Source: Terriglobus tenax | Lineage (GTDB): Bacteria > Acidobacteriota > Terriglobia > Terriglobales > Acidobacteriaceae | Direction: 5' to 3' | Length of the DNA: 64,000 nt | NCBI RefSeq assembly: GCF_025685395.1 | Contig: NZ_JAGSYA010000003.1 | Span: 744,001 to 808,000 of the forward strand | In this document: positions 23,500-31,352 of the stretch, in pieces | How positions within the stretch are numbered: the first letter of the stretch is position 1 | Layout: the number at the start of each line of letters is the position of its first letter | Position numbers and translations under genes: made by a program | The notes under the pieces: generated by a model | Database searches by the model: none | What the model was told of the DNA's origin: nothing | What the model saw: the letters and a program-made list of their open reading frames with translations, nothing else

Positions 23500-23528
23500 C
23501 TGGATGCCGGTCACTGTCCGGCATCCAG
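23500..23528. terminator. Hairpin across the convergent gene ends (acyltransferase and kdpC)
   Basis: CTGGATGCCGG and its exact reverse complement form an 11-bp stem over a 7-base loop. One arm lies inside the kdpC 3' end, the loop contains the kdpC stop, and the other arm lies beyond it. No T run follows on either strand, so termination strength is uncertain. Confidence 0.5.
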
Positions 23529-24062
23529 TGCAAGGTTCAGCCGTAATACATTCACACGTGGCTCGCCCAGCAGGCCGAATTGACGATCGGTAATATGATC
23601 CTCCACCAGCTTGCGGACGATCCACTCAGGCCTGCCGCGCTCCTTGGCAACTCGACCGACCTGCGCAAGTGCAGCCGCCGGAGAGAGATCGGGATCAAGC
23701 CCCGATCCTGATGCCGTCACCAGGTCTACCGGCACATTCGATACCTTCTCCGCCGCTACGCTGGCTCCCACCCGATCCACCAGGGCTTTACTGGTTGTCG
23801 CCAGGTTCGATCCGCTGGACGCCGAGGCATCATAGCCAGTTCCAGCCGCTGAAGGACGGCTGTGAAAGTAACGCGGCCCGGTGAAAGGCTGTCCAATCAG
23901 TTGCGATCCAACCGTGCTGCCATCCTTGGTGATGATCTGTCCATTCGCCTTGTCGCGGAACAGTAACTGCGCCACAGCCGTTATTCCCAGGGGATACACA
24001 ATGCCCAGCAGAACGGCGGTCACCAGCGTGTAGAGCGATGCGGTAATCAAGTGCTTTTTCAT
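23511..24062 (-). CDS. kdpC: Potassium-transporting ATPase subunit KdpC
   Basis: KdpC is the single-span accessory subunit that stabilises the KdpFABC complex and raises ATP affinity. The 183-residue product has one N-terminal membrane helix (about 8-32) followed by an extracytoplasmic domain with [38 protein letters not shown] and [19 protein letters not shown], all diagnostic of the family. It is the last gene of the operon, 14 bases after kdpB. A hairpin spans its stop codon. Confidence 0.96.
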
Positions 24063-24076
24063 GGTCAGTAACTCCT

Positions 24077-26116
24077 CTATGCCAGGTGCATAGCGACGAT
24101 CAATACATCGATCAGCTTGATGCCGACGAACGGCACGATAATGCCGCCCAGTCCGTAGAGCAGCAGGTTGCGCTGCAGCAGGGCAGCGGCGGACATGGGC
24201 TTATAGCTCACACCGCGCAGCGCCAGGGGAATCAGCCCGATAATAATCAGCGCGTTGAAGATGATGGCCGACAGCACCGCTGACTCCGCGTTATGCAGAT
24301 GCATGATGTTCAATGCATTCAGCACAGGGAAGAAGCCGGCAAACATCGCAGGAATAATCGCAAAGTACTTGGCCACATCGTTGGCGATGGAGAAGGTGGT
24401 CAGAGCTCCGCGCGTCATCAGCAACTGCTTGCCGATGGCCACAATCTCGATCAGCTTGGTCGGGTTGCTGTCCAGATCGACCATGTTGCCGGCTTCTTTT
24501 GCAGCCTGCGTGCCGCTGTTCATCGCAACGCCTACATCGGCCTGCGCCAGCGCCGGAGCGTCGTTGGTGCCGTCGCCCGTCATGGCCACCAGTTTGCCAT
24601 CGGCCTGCTCGCGCTTGATCAGGTCCATTTTGTCCTTCGGCTTGGCTTCGGCCAGAAAGTCATCGACGCCAGCTTCCCGTGCAATGGCGGCTGCTGTCAG
24701 CGGGTTATCGCCGGTAATCATTACCGTGCGAATGCCCATGGCGCGCAACTGTTCGAAGCGCTCCTTCATGCCCCCCTTCACCACGTCCTTCAGGTGAATC
24801 ACGCCCAGGGCGACACCGTTTTCGGCAACTACCAGGGGAGTGCCGCCACTGCGTGCAACCGTCTCTACTGCGCTGCGGACCTCCGTGGGCATCGGCGCGC
24901 CATGTTCTTCAAGGTAGCGGGCAATGGCGTCCACAGCACCCTTGCGAATGCTGCGGCCCTCCACCTCAATGCCGCTCATGCGCGTGGTTGCGGAGAAGGG
25001 AACGAACTCGGCATGCATCTGCCCAAGCTCGCGCCCGCGCAGGCCGTACTTCTCCTTCGCCAGTACGACGATCGAGCGGCCCTCCGGCGTCTCGTCGGCC
25101 AGCGAAGAAAGCTGCGCCGCATCGGCCAGTGTCTCGGCGGTCACACCAGGCGCGGCTACAAACTCCGCTGCCTGACGATTGCCAATGGTGATGGTGCCCG
25201 TCTTGTCCAGCAGCAGCGTGTTCACATCGCCCGCTGCTTCCACCGCGCGTCCGCTGGTGGCGAGCACATTGTGCTGAACCAGCCGGTCCATACCCGCAAT
25301 GCCAATGGCCGAGAGCAAGCCGCCGATTGTTGTCGGAATCAGGCACACCAGCAGCGATACCAGCACGAACACAGTCTGTGGCGCGCCGGAGTACACCGCA
25401 AACGGTTGCAGTGTCACCACCGCAAGCAGGAAAGTAATCGTCAACCCCGCCAGCAGAATGTTCAGTGCAATTTCGTTTGGAGTCTTCTGGCGTTCCGCGC
25501 CTTCGACGAGTGCGATCATACGATCAAGGAAGGTCTCGCCAGGGTTCGAGGTAATCTGCACAGTGATCACGTCGCTGAGTACGCGCGTTCCGCCAGTAAC
25601 AGCAGAGCGATCGCCACCTGCTTCGCGAATCACAGGAGCGGACTCGCCGGTGATGGCCGACTCATCCACTGATGCGATGCCATGCGTTACCTCGCCATCG
25701 CCGGGAATCATCTGTCCGGCGCTGACCTGCACCACATCACCGGCGCGAAGCTGCGAGCTGGGAACCTCTTCCAGTCCGTTCTTGCCCACGCGATAAGCGG
25801 TGGTCTCCGACTTGGCCTGGCGCAGCGCATCGGCCTGGGCTTTGCCCCGGCCCTCTGCCATGGCTTCTGCAAAGTTGGCGAACAGCACGGTGAACCACAG
25901 CCACAGCGTGATCTGCAGATCAAACTCAAAATGTCCATGCCGGGTGATGACATTGGAGATCAGCAGCACGGTCGTAACAACACTGCCTACCTCCACCACA
26001 AACATCACCGGGTTCTTCATCATTGTCTTCGGATCGAGCTTCACCAGCGCGTCTACCGCGGCGCGGCGAACAATCTTACGATCAAACAGGGAGCGGCGCT
26101 TCATAGAGTGCGACAT
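24077..26116 (-). CDS. kdpB: Potassium-transporting P-type ATPase subunit KdpB
   Basis: KdpB is the ATP-hydrolysing subunit of the high-affinity K+ pump. The 679-residue protein shows all P-type hallmarks: [17 protein letters not shown] in the actuator domain (TGES), the phosphorylation motif [15 protein letters not shown] with Asp304, [43 protein letters not shown] in pieces along the hinge region, and seven hydrophobic segments. The sequence is intact. It lies between kdpA and kdpC with gaps of 12 and 14 bases. Confidence 0.97.
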
Positions 26117-26128
26117 AGACCGGTCTCC

Positions 26129-27892
26129 TTAGAAGGTCTGTCCAATACCGAGCAGCAGGTGCTCAAGAATCGGACCAAGAGAAAGTACGGGAAAGAAGGT
26201 CAGCGCGCCGACAATCACAATCACTGCCGTCAATAGCACGGTGAACAGCGGTGTCGTGACCGGGAAGGTGCCTGCCGAGGCTGGAACAATCTTTTTGCCC
26301 GCAAGGTTGCCGGCAATCGCCAGCATGGGGATGATCATCATGAACCGCCCGAAGAACATCGCAATGCCAAGTGTGTAGTTGTACCAGTGCGTGTTGGCGT
26401 TCAGCCCTGCAAACGCTGAGCCGTTATTGCCGGTCGCAGAGGTATAGGCATACAGAATCTCCGACAACCCATGCGGCCCGTGGTTGGCCAGGCTGCTCAG
26501 CCCTAGATGAGGCATCAGTACAGAGATCGCGGCAAAGCCAAGAATCACCAGCGGGAAGATGAGGATGTACAGCATGGAGAGCTGCACGTCGTAGGCCTCA
26601 ATCTTCTTGCCCAGGTACTCCGGCGTGCGGCCTACCATCAGGCCTGCGATGAATACCGCGACGATGACGAAGACCAGCATGCCGTACATGCCCGCTCCCA
26701 CACCGCCAAAGACCACCTCGCCCAGCAGGATATTGACCATCGGGACCATGCCGCCCAACGGGGTAAAGCTGTCATGCATACCGTTCACCGCGCCGCAGCT
26801 TGCGTCGGTGGTCACCGTGGCAAACAACGCGGTATTTGCAATGCCAAAGCGAACCTCTTTGCCTTCCATGTTGCCGCCGCTCTGCAGGGTTGAGACATGC
26901 TGGTCCACGCCATGCAGCATCGGGTTGCCATGTGCCTCTGCCCAGTAGCAGGTCAACACACCGGCAAAGCAAAGCAGCGCCATCGCGGCAAACACAGCCC
27001 ATCCATGCTTCGGCGATCCAACCATCTGCCCTAGCGTTGCCGTCAGCGCGGCCGGAATCAGGAAGATCGCAAGCATCTCGAGGAAGTTTGTCAGCGGTGT
27101 GGGGTTCTCAAACGGGTGCGCGCTGTTGGCATTGAAGAAGCCGCCGCCGTTGGTGCCCAGCATCTTGATGGCTTCCTGCGATGCGACAGGGCCCTGCGCA
27201 ATCGTCTGCGTGGTCACCGTCGTCTGTTTGCCATCGACACCGGTCGAGGTTTGCGGTTCCACCAGCTTCGCAGTGTCATACGGCTTCAGGTTCTGCACTA
27301 CACCCTGAGACACCAGCACGAGAGCGAAGATAACCGACAGCGGCAGCAGTACCCACAGTGTGCCGCGCGTCAGGTCGACCCAGAAGTTGCCCAACGTCTT
27401 CATTTCGCGGCGCGCAATGCCGCGAATAAAGGCAATCGCCAGCGCCAGGCCAACCGCTGCCGACCAGAAGTTGTGCGTCGCCAGACCGAGCATCTGCGTC
27501 AGATAGCTCATCGTGGTCTCCGGCACATACGACTGCCAGTTGGTGTTGGTCGTGAAGGAGATTGCGGTGTTCAGTGCAAGGTCAGAAGCAACGCCCGGCA
27601 GATGCTGCGGGTTGAAGGGAAGCAGATGCTGCAGCCGCTGGACCAGGTACGTCAGCACCAGCGTCGCCGCACTGAAGATCAGCATGGCCGTGGCATACAT
27701 GCCCCAGCTCATCTCCTGCTCGGCATCCACGCCGGTCAGCCGGTAGAACAGGCGTTCGCACGGGCCAAGCACGACATCCAGGGGAGTCCGCTGCCGTTGA
27801 AACACACGTGTGATATACGCGCCAAGCGGCTTGGTCAGCAGCAGGACAGCGGCAAAGAAAAGAACAATTTGAAGCCAGCCATTAAGAGACAT
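26129..27892 (-). CDS. kdpA: Potassium-transporting ATPase subunit KdpA
   Basis: KdpA is the K+-channel-like subunit related to the SKT superfamily that selects potassium. The 587-residue protein has about ten membrane helices and the four pore-loop signatures: FTTNTNWQSY in the first, GTNGGGFFNANSAHPFENPT in the second, a third around ASCGAVNGMHDSF, and GNNGSAFAGLNANTHWYN in the fourth. Family length is usual. The ATG overlaps the kdpF stop by one base (TGATG), a sign of tight translational coupling. Confidence 0.97.
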   Translation of the reverse strand: MSLNGWLQIVLFFAAVLLLTKPLGAYITRVFQRQRTPLDVVLGPCERLFYRLTGVDAEQEMSWGMYATAMLIFSAATLVLTYLVQRLQHLLPFNPQHLPGVASDLALNTAISFTTNTNWQSYVPETTMSYLTQMLGLATHNFWSAAVGLALAIAFIRGIARREMKTLGNFWVDLTRGTLWVLLPLSVIFALVLVSQGVVQNLKPYDTAKLVEPQTSTGVDGKQTTVTTQTIAQGPVASQEAIKMLGTNGGGFFNANSAHPFENPTPLTNFLEMLAIFLIPAALTATLGQMVGSPKHGWAVFAAMALLCFAGVLTCYWAEAHGNPMLHGVDQHVSTLQSGGNMEGKEVRFGIANTALFATVTTDASCGAVNGMHDSFTPLGGMVPMVNILLGEVVFGGVGAGMYGMLVFVIVAVFIAGLMVGRTPEYLGKKIEAYDVQLSMLYILIFPLVILGFAAISVLMPHLGLSSLANHGPHGLSEILYAYTSATGNNGSAFAGLNANTHWYNYTLGIAMFFGRFMMIIPMLAIAGNLAGKKIVPASAGTFPVTTPLFTVLLTAVIVIVGALTFFPVLSLGPILEHLLLGIGQTF

Positions 27893-27978
27893 CAGAACTT
27901 CTCCGGGCGAAGCAGTGCGTAAACGAGATACACCATCAGCAGCAGCGAGATGATGAGAAGAATGCCGTTGGCGATCAT
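27892..27978 (-). CDS. kdpF: Potassium-transporting ATPase small subunit KdpF
   Basis: KdpF is a one-helix peptide that stabilises the Kdp complex. The 28-residue product is one hydrophobic helix (IANGILLIISLLLMVYLVYA) ending LLRPEKF, and the RPE/K ending is typical of KdpF. Its stop overlaps the kdpA start by one base, and its ATG overlaps the stop of a further small ORF upstream by 4 bases (ATGA). Confidence 0.92.
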   Translation of the reverse strand: MIANGILLIISLLLMVYLVYALLRPEKF

Positions 27979-28073
27979 TGGTTTTTCCCTTTCAGACGCG
28001 CACAGCCATGCACATACAACAGGCTGAGCGGGAACAGAAGGATGAGCGTGATGCCTGCGATCAGGTCCGCCAT
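27975..28073 (-). CDS. Unnamed 32-aa single-helix membrane peptide upstream of kdpF
   Basis: I do not recognise this product. The ORF encodes 32 residues: a short acidic start (MADLIAG), one hydrophobic helix (about ITLILLFPLSLLYVH) and a basic tail (CARLKGKNQ), predicting a peptide with cytoplasmic positive C-terminus. Support for translation is strong: AAGGAGG stands 6 bases before the ATG, and the stop overlaps the kdpF ATG in an ATGA junction. It starts 23 bases after the porin gene. Position and size suggest another small component or regulator of Kdp. It lacks the KdpF ending, so it is not simply a second kdpF copy. Confidence 0.78.
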   Translation of the reverse strand: MADLIAGITLILLFPLSLLYVHGCARLKGKNQ

Positions 28074-28096
28074 TGTGTCCCTCCTTGCAGGGCCCT

Positions 28097-29464
28097 TTAC
28101 CACTGGCCCTGTTTGTTGCCCCACCAGAACACAAGCCCCAGCGTCGCCGTCGGCTGCTGTTTGACCAGCACACCCGCGGTATCCGTGGTGAAGAAGTTCT
28201 GGTTGGAGTAATCTCTGCGATATTCAGCGCGGGCCAGCATGCCCGGCGCCAGCTTCTTGTCGGCGACGAAGGTAAACTCCTTCAGCGCCTGCGTCTTACC
28301 GCTGAACATTGCACCGCGGTCGTCAAAGTATTCAAACCGGCTGCCAATGCTCCAGTCCTTCGGCAAGGTGTAGTGGACGTAAGCCGCACCAATGGCGATG
28401 TGCTTCATGGTGCTCTGTTGCTGCTCTCGGCTGATTACGTAATCGGCCTCACCCACCAATGTCAGCCGCGGCGTCACGTTCCACGTCGCATAGGTGTCGA
28501 AGATGTGGTTGCGTCCATTCGGCGCGGGTGTAATGTTGGCCCTCGGAAGCCCCGGTTGCGTCGGAGAGGTCGGAGCTCCTGGGTTGTCGGTTGGCAGCAC
28601 ATCCCGCTGCTCCTGGCCGAAGTAATAGTTCACATTCCAGGAGACAGTCGATGCAGGCTTGAAGTTGAAGAGGAAGGCCTGCGATTTGAAGCCGTTGAAG
28701 TCCTCTGTCTGCTGTACCCCATTCACCAGCCAGTAGGTGAAGTTCACCTTCGGCGTCAGGTTGTAATTCGCCCGTACGCCCATGTGATAGTAGGGCAGGA
28801 AATTGAAGGTATAGGAGCGCGAATACGCGATCTGGTCCTTGGTGTAGTTACCTTCCACCCCAAGCGCGCTGGAGAACTTGCCGAAGTCAATCTGCAACCC
28901 GCTGCCGATCGGCGCCAGATAGCTGCCGTACGCCTGGAACAGGTTGCGCCATACCTGGGCACGCTGCTCATTCGCATACGAACCCTGCAGGGTCTCGGTC
29001 GCCTGGCCAAACTGCAGGTCGACGCGGCCACCAAAGCGGCTCTGGATGGAGGGCAGACGTTCTACGACCAGTGACGCCTGGTTGATGCTGAAGCTGTTGC
29101 TGGTGACGTCATACACGCGCAACAGGTTGGCGCGGCCAATCGGCTGGTTGAAGTTGTAGCCATAGTAGCCGTCGAACCCAATGCCGACGGTCGTTCCCTG
29201 CAGCAGGTCTTCCTGCTTCGACGGAATAGGGGCCACGGCCGCATCAACCGGGGAAGCTTTTTCAGCCGCAAGTGTGATGGCCGCCGCGGGGAGGGCAGTG
29301 GCATCCGCCTTTTCCAGTACGTCCAGGCGCGCAGAAATCCGCGCCAGTTCCTGCCGCAATGCGGATATCTCAGCCTTACGCTGCTCGGCGTCGGGAACAG
29401 CCTGGGCCGCCATTGGGACGGCTGTGAGAAGTGCGAGGACGGCGGTGCTGATGGCGGCTTTCAT
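28097..29464 (-). CDS. Outer-membrane beta-barrel porin (BBP2/DUF1597-like), first gene of the kdp operon
   Basis: The 455-residue protein has a signal peptide (about 1-22), a short coiled coil (about 26-52, EQRKAEISALRQELARISARL in part) and then alternating amphipathic strands ending with an aromatic C-terminus (GNKQGQW). Strand segments such as VGIGFDGYYGYNFNQP and FQAYGSYLAPIGSGLQIDFGKF match the outer-membrane beta-barrel family with DUF1597 annotation. The coiled coil could bind peptidoglycan or trimerise the protein. GGAG precedes the ATG. Only 23 bases separate it from the small ORF before kdpF, so it should be cotranscribed with the K+ pump and may act as its potassium-permeable pore; that role is inference. 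Confidence 0.82.
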   Translation of the reverse strand: MKAAISTAVLALLTAVPMAAQAVPDAEQRKAEISALRQELARISARLDVLEKADATALPAAAITLAAEKASPVDAAVAPIPSKQEDLLQGTTVGIGFDGYYGYNFNQPIGRANLLRVYDVTSNSFSINQASLVVERLPSIQSRFGGRVDLQFGQATETLQGSYANEQRAQVWRNLFQAYGSYLAPIGSGLQIDFGKFSSALGVEGNYTKDQIAYSRSYTFNFLPYYHMGVRANYNLTPKVNFTYWLVNGVQQTEDFNGFKSQAFLFNFKPASTVSWNVNYYFGQEQRDVLPTDNPGAPTSPTQPGLPRANITPAPNGRNHIFDTYATWNVTPRLTLVGEADYVISREQQQSTMKHIAIGAAYVHYTLPKDWSIGSRFEYFDDRGAMFSGKTQALKEFTFVADKKLAPGMLARAEYRRDYSNQNFFTTDTAGVLVKQQPTATLGLVFWWGNKQGQW

Positions 29465-29498
29465 ACTGCTCCATGGATGATTGAATTCCCGGAGCCCG

Positions 29499-29515
29499 TA
29501 GGAAAGTCATAGAAA
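29499..29515 (-). promoter_or_regulatory. Candidate KdpE binding site upstream of the porin-kdp operon
   Basis: On the minus strand TTTCTA and TTTCCTA are placed 10 bases apart, one helical turn, 35 to 51 bases before the porin start. The T-rich tandem form and the following GGGC resemble the enteric KdpE box. The whole gap to kdpE is only 56 bases, so any operon promoter must be here or inside kdpE. Confidence 0.4.
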
Positions 29516-29520
29516 AAGCG

Positions 29521-30225
29521 TTAAAAAGTCGTAAGATCCTCGTGACCATCGGGACTAAAACGATAGCCGACCCAAGGCTCGCTCTGAATATATTTCGACG
29601 TGTCTGTTTCGATTTTTTTCCTAAGTTGGGCAACTAGCACCCGCAGATACTCCGGCTGATTGGCGCCAGCCACCCCCCAGATCGATCGCAGGAGGGTTTT
29701 ATGGGTCAACACCTTCAGCGGGCTCTTCGCAAACAGCAGAAGAAGGTCAAACTCCTTGGGCGACAGGTGCAGATGTTCTCCCCGCACCGTCACAATTCGG
29801 CTGTCCTGATCAATATGAAAGTGGCCTACTTCCAGCACCGCGTGCGAAGCCGTCTCCGCGCGTTGCGTCCGGCGCAGGTGTGCCCGCACGCGCGCCAACA
29901 GCTCCGGCGTGCGGAAGGGCTTGGTCACGTAATCGTCCGCGCCTTCATCCAGCGCCTGGACCTTGGCTTCGTCGTTGTCGCGCACGCTCAGCACAATGAT
30001 CGGGAGCTCATGCGAAGCACGCACCTTGCGCGTGAGTTCAATGCCGTCCATCCCGGGCATCGACAGGTCGGTAATCAGCAGGTCCGGCACCGACTGGGCA
30101 ATTGCCTCCAGCGCAGACCTTCCGCCTCCGGCTGTATTCACGGCATATCCGCTGGCCTGCAGCGTGGTGCGCAACATGCGAAGAATCTGCGGATCGTCAT
30201 CCACAACCAGGATATTGGCGCTCAT
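29521..30225 (-). CDS. kdpE: Response regulator KdpE (OmpR family)
   Basis: KdpE activates kdp transcription when phosphorylated. The 234-residue protein has a receiver domain with acidic pair in VVDDDPQ, phospho-acceptor Asp53 in LLITDLSMPG, a conserved KPF lysine near 103, and an OmpR-type winged helix at about 130-228 (LHLSPKEFDLLLLFA). Family length is usual. Its start overlaps the stop of the KdpD sensor gene in ATGA, and it lies 56 bases upstream of the porin-kdp operon on the same strand. Confidence 0.93.
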   Translation of the reverse strand: MSANILVVDDDPQILRMLRTTLQASGYAVNTAGGGRSALEAIAQSVPDLLITDLSMPGMDGIELTRKVRASHELPIIVLSVRDNDEAKVQALDEGADDYVTKPFRTPELLARVRAHLRRTQRAETASHAVLEVGHFHIDQDSRIVTVRGEHLHLSPKEFDLLLLFAKSPLKVLTHKTLLRSIWGVAGANQPEYLRVLVAQLRKKIETDTSKYIQSEPWVGYRFSPDGHEDLTTF

Positions 30226-31352
30226 CGAGACTCCTGCGTGATGATGTGAAGGTCCACATGCGGAGCCTCCGACATGAACTTCTGGATGGCAAGGTAGTAG
30301 AGGTACTTCTTCAGCCCATGCAGGGCCGATCGTCCAAAAAGCGCCTGCGTGATGCGTTGTTCCTTCACAAACGCCGCCGTGGCTGAGGCAACACTGCTGC
30401 CCGACAGATGAACCACGGTAGCTCCCAGGTTATTGGCAAATTGGATGTGCGACTCCAGAATCTTCGCACGTTCCGGTGTTTTATCACGCTCATTGTCCAC
30501 ATGCAGAACGTACAGCTCGCCATCCAGGGCCTGCGCCAGGCGCGCACCGCGCCCAATCAGGTCGCGCGCTTCAGGGTTCGCGCTGATGCAGACGGCGATG
30601 CGCTCAGCCACGGTCCAGTGCGGCCCCAGTTGTTTGCGTTTCACATAGTCATCCAGCGTGCGGTCCACCGCGCGGGTCACGCGTTGCAGCGCCATCTCTC
30701 GCAGGGCAATCAGGTTGCCCTTGCGGAAGAAGTTCGAAAGCGCCCGCTCCACCCGCTCCTGCGGATAGATATCGCCGCGTCTCATGCGTGTCACCAGCGC
30801 CTCCGGCGTCAGATCGCTGATGACAATCTCATCGGCCTGGTCCAGCACCCAGTCCGGCACCTGTTCCTGCACCTTGATGCCGGTCAGCGCCTGCACACGC
30901 ATGCTCAGGCTTTCGACATGCTGGATGTTGATCGTCGATAGCACGTCGATCTTGTTCTCCAGCAGCAGCAGAACATCTTCATACCGCTTGCCGGTCCGGC
31001 TGCCTTCAATGTTGGTATGCGCCAGTTCGTCCACCAGCACCACCTGCGGCATCCGGGACAGAATGGCATCCACATCCATTTCCGTGAAGAGTGTGCCCTT
31101 GTACTCGATCTCTTTGCGGGGAATCTGCTCAAGTTTGGCGGCCATCTCGGCGGTGCCGGCGCGGCCATGGGTTTCCACAATGCCGATGACCACATCTTCT
31201 CCGCGGCTGCGGCGGCGTACGCCCTCGCTCAGCATGGCGAAGGTCTTGCCGACACCGGGCGCATAGCCAAGGAAAACCTTGAAGCGGCCACGTGCTTTTT
31301 CCGTCTCGCTGCTGCTCAACCAATCTTCCGGAGACTTGCGATAGTCAGGCAC
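30222..31352 (-). CDS. kdpD: KdpD N-terminal sensor protein without kinase (KdpD + Usp domains)
   Basis: This 376-residue protein is only the cytoplasmic N-terminal half of KdpD. The KdpD domain (about 20-230) contains the Walker-A-like GYAPGVGKTFAML and Walker-B-like VVLVDELAHTN; a universal-stress-protein domain (about 248-370) contains GRGARLAQALDGELYVLHVD and VVHLSGSSVASATAAF. No membrane helix or histidine-kinase domain follows; the frame stops in the ATGA overlap with kdpE. The kinase half is a separate, divergent gene. The start is GTG, with GAGGAG 11 bases upstream. Intact ends and good codon usage indicate true gene fission, not decay. Confidence 0.9.
   Translation of the reverse strand: MPDYRKSPEDWLSSSETEKARGRFKVFLGYAPGVGKTFAMLSEGVRRRSRGEDVVIGIVETHGRAGTAEMAAKLEQIPRKEIEYKGTLFTEMDVDAILSRMPQVVLVDELAHTNIEGSRTGKRYEDVLLLLENKIDVLSTINIQHVESLSMRVQALTGIKVQEQVPDWVLDQADEIVISDLTPEALVTRMRRGDIYPQERVERALSNFFRKGNLIALREMALQRVTRAVDRTLDDYVKRKQLGPHWTVAERIAVCISANPEARDLIGRGARLAQALDGELYVLHVDNERDKTPERAKILESHIQFANNLGATVVHLSGSSVASATAAFVKEQRITQALFGRSALHGLKKYLYYLAIQKFMSEAPHVDLHIITQESR

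Follow-up and report, generated by a model that had tools for sequence, protein, structure and literature searches.

The window, a stretch of 64,000 nucleotides from the genome of Terriglobus tenax, carries on its minus strand a run of kdp genes in which a very short frame precedes kdpF. This frame (28073-27975, minus strand; ATG at 28073-28071, stop at 27977-27975) encodes a 32-residue peptide, MADLIAGITLILLFPLSLLYVHGCARLKGKNQ, predicted from its hydrophobicity to form a single membrane helix. A Shine-Dalgarno sequence, AAGGAGG (28080..28086, minus strand), is separated from the ATG by 6 nt. The stop of the peptide gene overlaps the start of kdpF in an ATGA, and kdpF (27892..27978, minus strand; 28 aa, MIANGILLIISLLLMVYLVYALLRPEKF; 43.0 bits with PF09604 for a cut-off of 21.2, 44.8 with TIGR02115 for a cut-off of 26.85) in turn has its stop and the start of kdpA joined by one common base (TGATG). 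The initial annotation, which gave no strand, had described a short frame with one hydrophobic helix, the AAGGAGG six bases 5' of its ATG and the chain of overlaps with kdpF and kdpA; each of these features is present in the sequence.

The structural genes follow on the same strand: kdpA (26129..27892; TIGR00680, 757.9 bits, cut-off 387.7), kdpB (24077..26116; TIGR01497, 1084.3 bits, cut-off 527.9) and kdpC (23511..24062; TIGR00681, 194.1 bits, cut-off 152.55). Upstream, also on the minus strand, the stop of a gene for a BBP2-type porin (28097..29464; PF07642, 219 bits) lies 23 nt from the ATG of the peptide gene. This outer-membrane porin is inserted in the kdp run, between the peptide gene and a response regulator (29521..30225) that is probably KdpE; its 174 bits with the KdpE model NF007820 are below the cut-off of 325, and this is only one among many regulator models matched. 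Next comes a KdpD-like protein (30222..31352) containing only the KdpD and Usp domains (PF02702 and PF00582, both over cut-off; NF038185 at 375 bits, below its cut-off of 550), without a kinase domain; similarly short KdpD-like frames are also common in relatives. Given the porin, regulator and KdpD-like genes upstream on the same strand, the peptide gene lies in the middle of the run and not at its 5' end. Neither a terminator-like nor a sigma-70-like site was found in 27700-28500, nor any Rfam match in 27500-30300, and the presence of a promoter, a terminator or an RNA element close to the peptide gene was rejected for the stretches scanned.

A hydrophobic frame of the same kind, identified by a simple rule, lies 5' of kdpF in 29 of 30 kdpA loci from the window genome and its relatives; the thirtieth (L028) possesses the peptide gene as well, farther upstream. 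At that locus, a 76-aa hydrophobic frame with no family match over cut-off is found between the peptide gene and kdpF. The single peptide sequence proved too weak as a query: at E<=10 it matched 38 of 199 genomes, and most of these matches look like chance. A profile built from 28 peptides (A2) was run on the open frames (18 aa or longer) within 450 nt upstream of kdpA at 122 loci, of which 116 scored at least 10 bits. At 8 bits or more, the antisense strand (0/122) and dinucleotide shuffles (0/610) gave nothing; at 6 bits or more, 2/610 shuffles scored. Among loci that had not contributed to A2, 77 of 80 reached 10 bits; these ranked as the top 80 among 588 confirmed candidates and are thus those nearest the window KdpA. 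Below the threshold were L093, where the peptide gene stands just beyond the 450 nt, L114, where kdpF alone was seen in the 503 nt at hand, and the Corallococcus locus L120, where no peptide gene was found.

The substitution pattern was then analysed on 20 independent close pairs, picked for equal peptide length. The pooled dN/dS of the peptide frame was 0.22, with 130.5 synonymous changes over 423.7 sites and 101.5 non-synonymous changes over 1211.3 sites (Fisher p 1.8e-26, in a test that takes sites as independent). In the same pairs, the other frames gave 1.2 (+1), 1.8 (+2) and 1.2 (antisense), while kdpF and kdpA gave 0.12 and 0.09. A few single pairs show no synonymous excess, such as L099/L101 (0 of 20.8 versus 2 of 57.2), and five pairs within the genus of the window show 40.8 of 122.8 synonymous versus 12.2 of 339.2 non-synonymous. 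Asp3 (156), Phe14 (143) and Cys24 (144) are kept in most of 166 family members, so that specific residues, and not hydrophobicity alone, are conserved. The peptide frame is a real protein-coding gene under purifying selection. A functionless open frame arising by chance would agree with the short length and the lack of a curated family, but it is practically excluded by the 77 of 80 out-of-sample loci, the clean controls, the dN/dS value and the position next to kdpA described below. The conservation with excess synonymous changes that the initial annotation had named as support is thus observed, and the broken or non-conserved frame in relatives that it had named as grounds for refutation is not.

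Scanning whole genomes, an approach that presupposes no link with kdp genes, tied the peptide to kdpA. With A2, 25 genomes or records were searched (L067 was excluded for its size), and 18 of 18 matches at E<=0.01 had a kdpA less than 600 nt downstream on the same strand; two plasmid records with matches had also given rows to A2. A broader profile of 69 peptides (A3), some of them from the scanned genomes, was run on 61 genomes, namely that of the window and 60 relatives. Out of 42 matches at E<=0.01, 40 were located 129-367 nt upstream of kdpA, and these fall in 39 of the 42 kdpA-bearing genomes. As for other genomes with kdpA, G043 has a match in the expected place at E 0.13, G046 has its kdpA cut by a contig end and no match upstream at E<=0.01, and G040 gave no match in the stretch read. 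A third scan covered 25 genomes, most of them picked for the absence of the peptide gene before kdpA, and returned four matches at E<=0.01. Those in G408 and G417 stand upstream of kdpA. The other two look like chance matches, as they fall in another frame of a long open frame (G372) and at the signal-peptide-like beginning of a longer protein (G439). Genome G260 has two kdp operons with a peptide gene in each, and a third complete kdpA (L178) at which none was found. The second kdpA of G266 (L175) has no peptide at the threshold used; a below-threshold frame ending MDLGLWLAAMFLLGMISMGLCYAFLVACENI, about 250-420 nt before this kdpA, is similar to the family and could be one of its diverged members.

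Two matches of the A3 scan fell elsewhere. In G048, the peptide gene is followed by kdpF and the beginning of kdpA, at a contig end. In G059, which has no kdpA match, the family-like peptide MLLDLAYLLVGTLVLAGFWLFARLCERL (L246:1216-1302, plus strand) starts two bases after a 156-aa frame, read as Usp-like though without a Pfam match, and precedes an APC permease gene. This permease was matched in 39 of the 61 genomes and 30 permease loci were fetched, the peptide being present only at the one of G059 (1/30). The APC permease was therefore rejected as a second partner transporter, and because no other fetched permease locus has the peptide, we read that of G059 as an orphan, possibly the relic of a lost kdp operon.

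At a larger scale, 204 kdpA loci were compiled after removal of duplicates and fragments; the 69 peptides of A3 come from them. The peptide scored at least 9 bits within 600 nt of kdpA at 166 of the 204 loci, in about a dozen phyla, against 0/204 for both the antisense strand and a stretch inside kdpA. The sample is uneven, and taxon groups follow either the record title or the phylum or class to which the search was directed. The peptide was found at every locus of the Acidobacteriota (48/48), Alphaproteobacteria (38/38), Betaproteobacteria (5/5) and Verrucomicrobiota (9/9), and at most loci of the Chloroflexota (30/34), Gammaproteobacteria (9/10, with Enterobacterales and Aeromonadales counted apart at 0/3), Actinomycetota (6/7), Deinococcota (3/4) and unclassified deltaproteobacteria (3/4). 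The Myxococcota gave 1/2, loci without a group name 1/2, and the Gemmatimonadota, Binatota, Planctomycetota and Eremiobacterota 1/1 each, single-locus groups being very small samples. In the cyanobacterial phylum the peptide is present at 9 of 30 loci and absent from 21. It was found at none of the loci of the Bacillota (0/2), Bacteroidota (0/1) or the archaeon (0/1). The one E. coli locus examined (L065), one of the three Enterobacterales and Aeromonadales loci counted above, does not have it either. Some members match weakly, as in the planctomycete L139 (12.0 bits), and the Chloroflexota loci L218 and L221, scored negative, hold recognisable members below the threshold.

The initial annotation, which had suggested a search of acidobacterial genomes, underestimated the spread, the peptide being no acidobacterial peculiarity. 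That the peptide belongs to the Kdp system, through the complex or its regulation, as also proposed there, is strongly supported by the kdpA-adjacent matches and the 166 of 204 loci. On a FastTree phylogeny of the 204 KdpA proteins, with L218 and L221 taken as positive, at least 10 presence/absence changes are needed; midpoint rooting places the peptide at 167 of 181 loci on one side and 1 of 23 on the other, some peptide-less clades having low support. The gene looks old, with several losses.

Across 176 loci with both genes, a count that includes duplicates, the overlap between the peptide gene and kdpF measures exactly 4 nt in 52, and 92 have 0-16 nt between the two genes. This location, mostly directly before kdpF, would suit a leader peptide for which the act of translation alone matters, by coupling or attenuating the expression of kdpF and kdpA. 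We judge such a role very improbable: the amino-acid sequence is not free to vary, as the dN/dS and Asp3 indicate, the gene sits mid-operon behind the porin in the window, and the scans of its surroundings revealed no terminator-like, sigma-70-like or Rfam element. Moreover, the peptide gene follows kdpB at L250, L251 and L324, and follows kdpF at L319; placement between kdpA and either kdpB or kdpF argues against a leader. The order is kdpB-peptide-kdpA-kdpC at L250 and L251 (stretches of 6.7 and 7.4 kb in which no kdpF was detected), kdpB-peptide-kdpF-kdpA-kdpC in D. psychrotolerans (L324) and kdpF-peptide-kdpA in Deinococcus KNUC1210 (L319). The peptide gene thus travels with the structural genes regardless of their arrangement, which points to a protein working with the pump.

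Other small frames were seen in kdp operons. Six Bradyrhizobium loci (L099, L101, L116, L119, L124, L127) have a third small hydrophobic frame of 34-38 aa, starting with TTG, GTG or ATG, between kdpF and kdpA. In Phyllobacterium, a 57-aa frame annotated as hypothetical and containing a hydrophobic segment lies between kdpA and kdpB (L325:3216-3389).

The consensus of the 166 members reads M-x-D...FF...Y...C-(E/D)-(R/K)-L. Positive residues average 0.04 in the first six positions and 1.86 from residue 21 on, a charge pattern that predicts an outer N-terminus and an inner C-terminus. A membrane peptide beside kdp genes could influence kdp transcription by acting on the sensor KdpD or some other kinase: KdpD-like and KdpE-like genes are located upstream on the same strand, and membrane peptides can interact with sensor kinases according to the accessible part of a study on the KdpF peptide (PMC3618439). 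We consider this role improbable, since the only PF02702 protein of the window genome has neither a membrane nor a kinase domain. Likewise, 53 of the 57 PF02702 open frames in the 61 genomes, some of them cut by contig ends, do not exceed 515 aa, whereas the model gives about 895 positions for a full-length KdpD. In the peptide-bearing D. radiodurans, the gene after kdpC encodes a 365-aa protein annotated as a universal stress protein. At the window locus, it is therefore unlikely that the peptide works via the membrane part of KdpD.

Taken together, the gene order, the predicted N-out/C-in topology, the coupling and a KdpD without a membrane part favour an accessory subunit or a tightly bound modulator of KdpFABC. 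We infer that the peptide acts within the Kdp complex rather than by regulating Kdp, and our preferred reading, held with moderate confidence, is that of a small accessory subunit, the fifth of KdpFABC, absent from the E. coli model. Under this proposal, the frame would be translated into one membrane helix, its N-terminus, with the conserved Asp3 and almost no positive charge, outside and its C-terminus, with the (E/D)(R/K)L motif and a basic tail, inside. Overlapping or closely spaced start and stop codons would keep synthesis of the peptide in step with that of KdpF and KdpA. The peptide would then pack against the membrane part of KdpA or KdpB and could stabilise or tune the complex, as suggested for KdpF. 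With slightly less confidence, we think that in most of the bacterial lineages sampled Kdp is a five-subunit machine, with an acidic residue at the outer face and Cys-(Glu/Asp)-(Arg/Lys)-Leu at the inner face. Such a subunit would have escaped notice, as E. coli, the source of the structures and of most of the biochemistry, lacks the peptide. In the accessible part of PMC12629597, KdpF and KdpC are suggested to be structural chaperones, a role in which the peptide would join them.

Two observations count against an accessory subunit. Kdp occurs without the peptide in several lineages and at single loci elsewhere, as well as at the third kdpA of G260 and, at the threshold used, the second kdpA of G266. 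Conversely, a family-like peptide is present in G059, where kdpA is missing. Instead of being a resident subunit, the peptide could be a small modulator of the pump or a factor in its assembly or turnover, binding to it only transiently or conditionally. Small modulators act on other P-type ATPases, such as sarcolipin and the FXYD proteins, and offer an analogy for an inhibitor, chaperone or protease-adaptor role on Kdp. The genetic evidence for a transient modulator is the same as for an accessory subunit; the repeated absence from pump-bearing lineages on the KdpA tree fits dispensability, and the peptide evolves faster (0.22) than KdpF (0.12) and KdpA (0.09). The tight coupling with kdpF and kdpA, in contrast, points to synthesis in step, and we regard a transient modulator as rather unlikely, albeit the most serious competitor of the accessory subunit.

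Existing annotation has mostly passed over the gene. One member, in Mycetohabitans (WP_338861741.1), is annotated as 'potassium ABC transporter ATPase', and longer 'hypothetical proteins' of Azospirillum and Rhizobium etli end in the peptide; in other records the gene is not annotated, plasmid gene tables being incomplete. A literature search, whose scope left aside supplementary tables and subscription papers, returned no report naming it. It is not named in the accessible text of PMC8552747, PMC9650054, PMC10903887, PMC5401905, PMC5716572, PMC11364881, PMC6255902 or PMC12629597, and 'kdp' does not occur in the main text of PMC10117765 and PMC4633059. In the accessible part of PMC5401905, the kdp transcript start of M. 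smegmatis is mapped 120 nt before kdpF, with the intervening stretch described as a long 5' UTR. The 80-odd nt directly 5' of kdpF are taken up by the peptide gene in Streptomyces and Nonomuraea, and in the order of M. smegmatis two Rhodococcus loci have the peptide while Tsukamurella does not. By analogy, a candidate peptide gene may explain this long 5' UTR.

In the PDB, 25 entries contain three distinct KdpA relatives of nearly equal score and length. Presumably all are the E. coli protein, and since the E. coli locus has no peptide gene, E. coli Kdp structures cannot show the peptide. Kdp is the textbook high-affinity K+ pump, and it probably has a partner absent from the E. coli model. 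If so, its composition, assembly and regulation as known from E. coli would be incomplete for many bacteria; the family profile makes the gene findable.

Regarding known systems, no Pfam or NCBIfam model matches the window peptide above its cut-off, and membership of a curated family was rejected. The 69 A3 members gave only weak scattered matches to curated families, cut-offs being compared for the first member only. The best of these matches (E 0.0024 and 0.0074) are both to BcsF (PF11120, TIGR03493), whose two models match 3 and 4 of the 69 at E<=0.1. The window peptide itself shows a weak profile resemblance to BcsF (E 0.051 and 0.075), but with 13.9 of 23 bits and 13 of 56 it stays far under the cut-offs, and its gene is surrounded by kdp and not cellulose genes.

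KdpF (PF09604, TIGR02115) is similar in kind, a single-helix peptide of about 30 aa encoded beside kdpA in the kdp operon and often unannotated. However, KdpF ends in PE(K/R)F-like residues whereas the family described here has D3...FF...Y...C(E/D)(R/K)L, and the two genes occur side by side. The KdpF models do not match the window peptide, KdpF is absent from the families matched by A3 members at E<=0.1, and hhalign of A3 against 42 KdpF sequences (A4) gave a probability of 6.6 over one aligned column, with no similarity. Paralogy with KdpF was rejected on this basis.

The cyanobacterial operons offer another additional small membrane gene, found between kdpB- and kdpC-sized frames at L249, L266, L267, L269-L271, L276-L280 and L282, which we take to be the one named KdpG; a literature search on that name found no paper. 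Its product, of about 70-110 aa, differs from the peptide in being an extended KdpF, in which a signal-peptide-like segment precedes a C-terminal half similar to KdpF. It has no match to the peptide family and was rejected as a homologue. The signal-peptide-like first half would place the N-terminus of this KdpF outside.

A likeness by class exists with small accessory subunits such as CydX and AcrZ, which have one helix and fewer than 50 aa and are tied to one transporter or enzyme. The likeness is one of class and implies no sequence link: the peptide is short, with one inferred hydrophobic helix, and its gene shares the operon and co-occurs with that of its putative partner, the Kdp pump.
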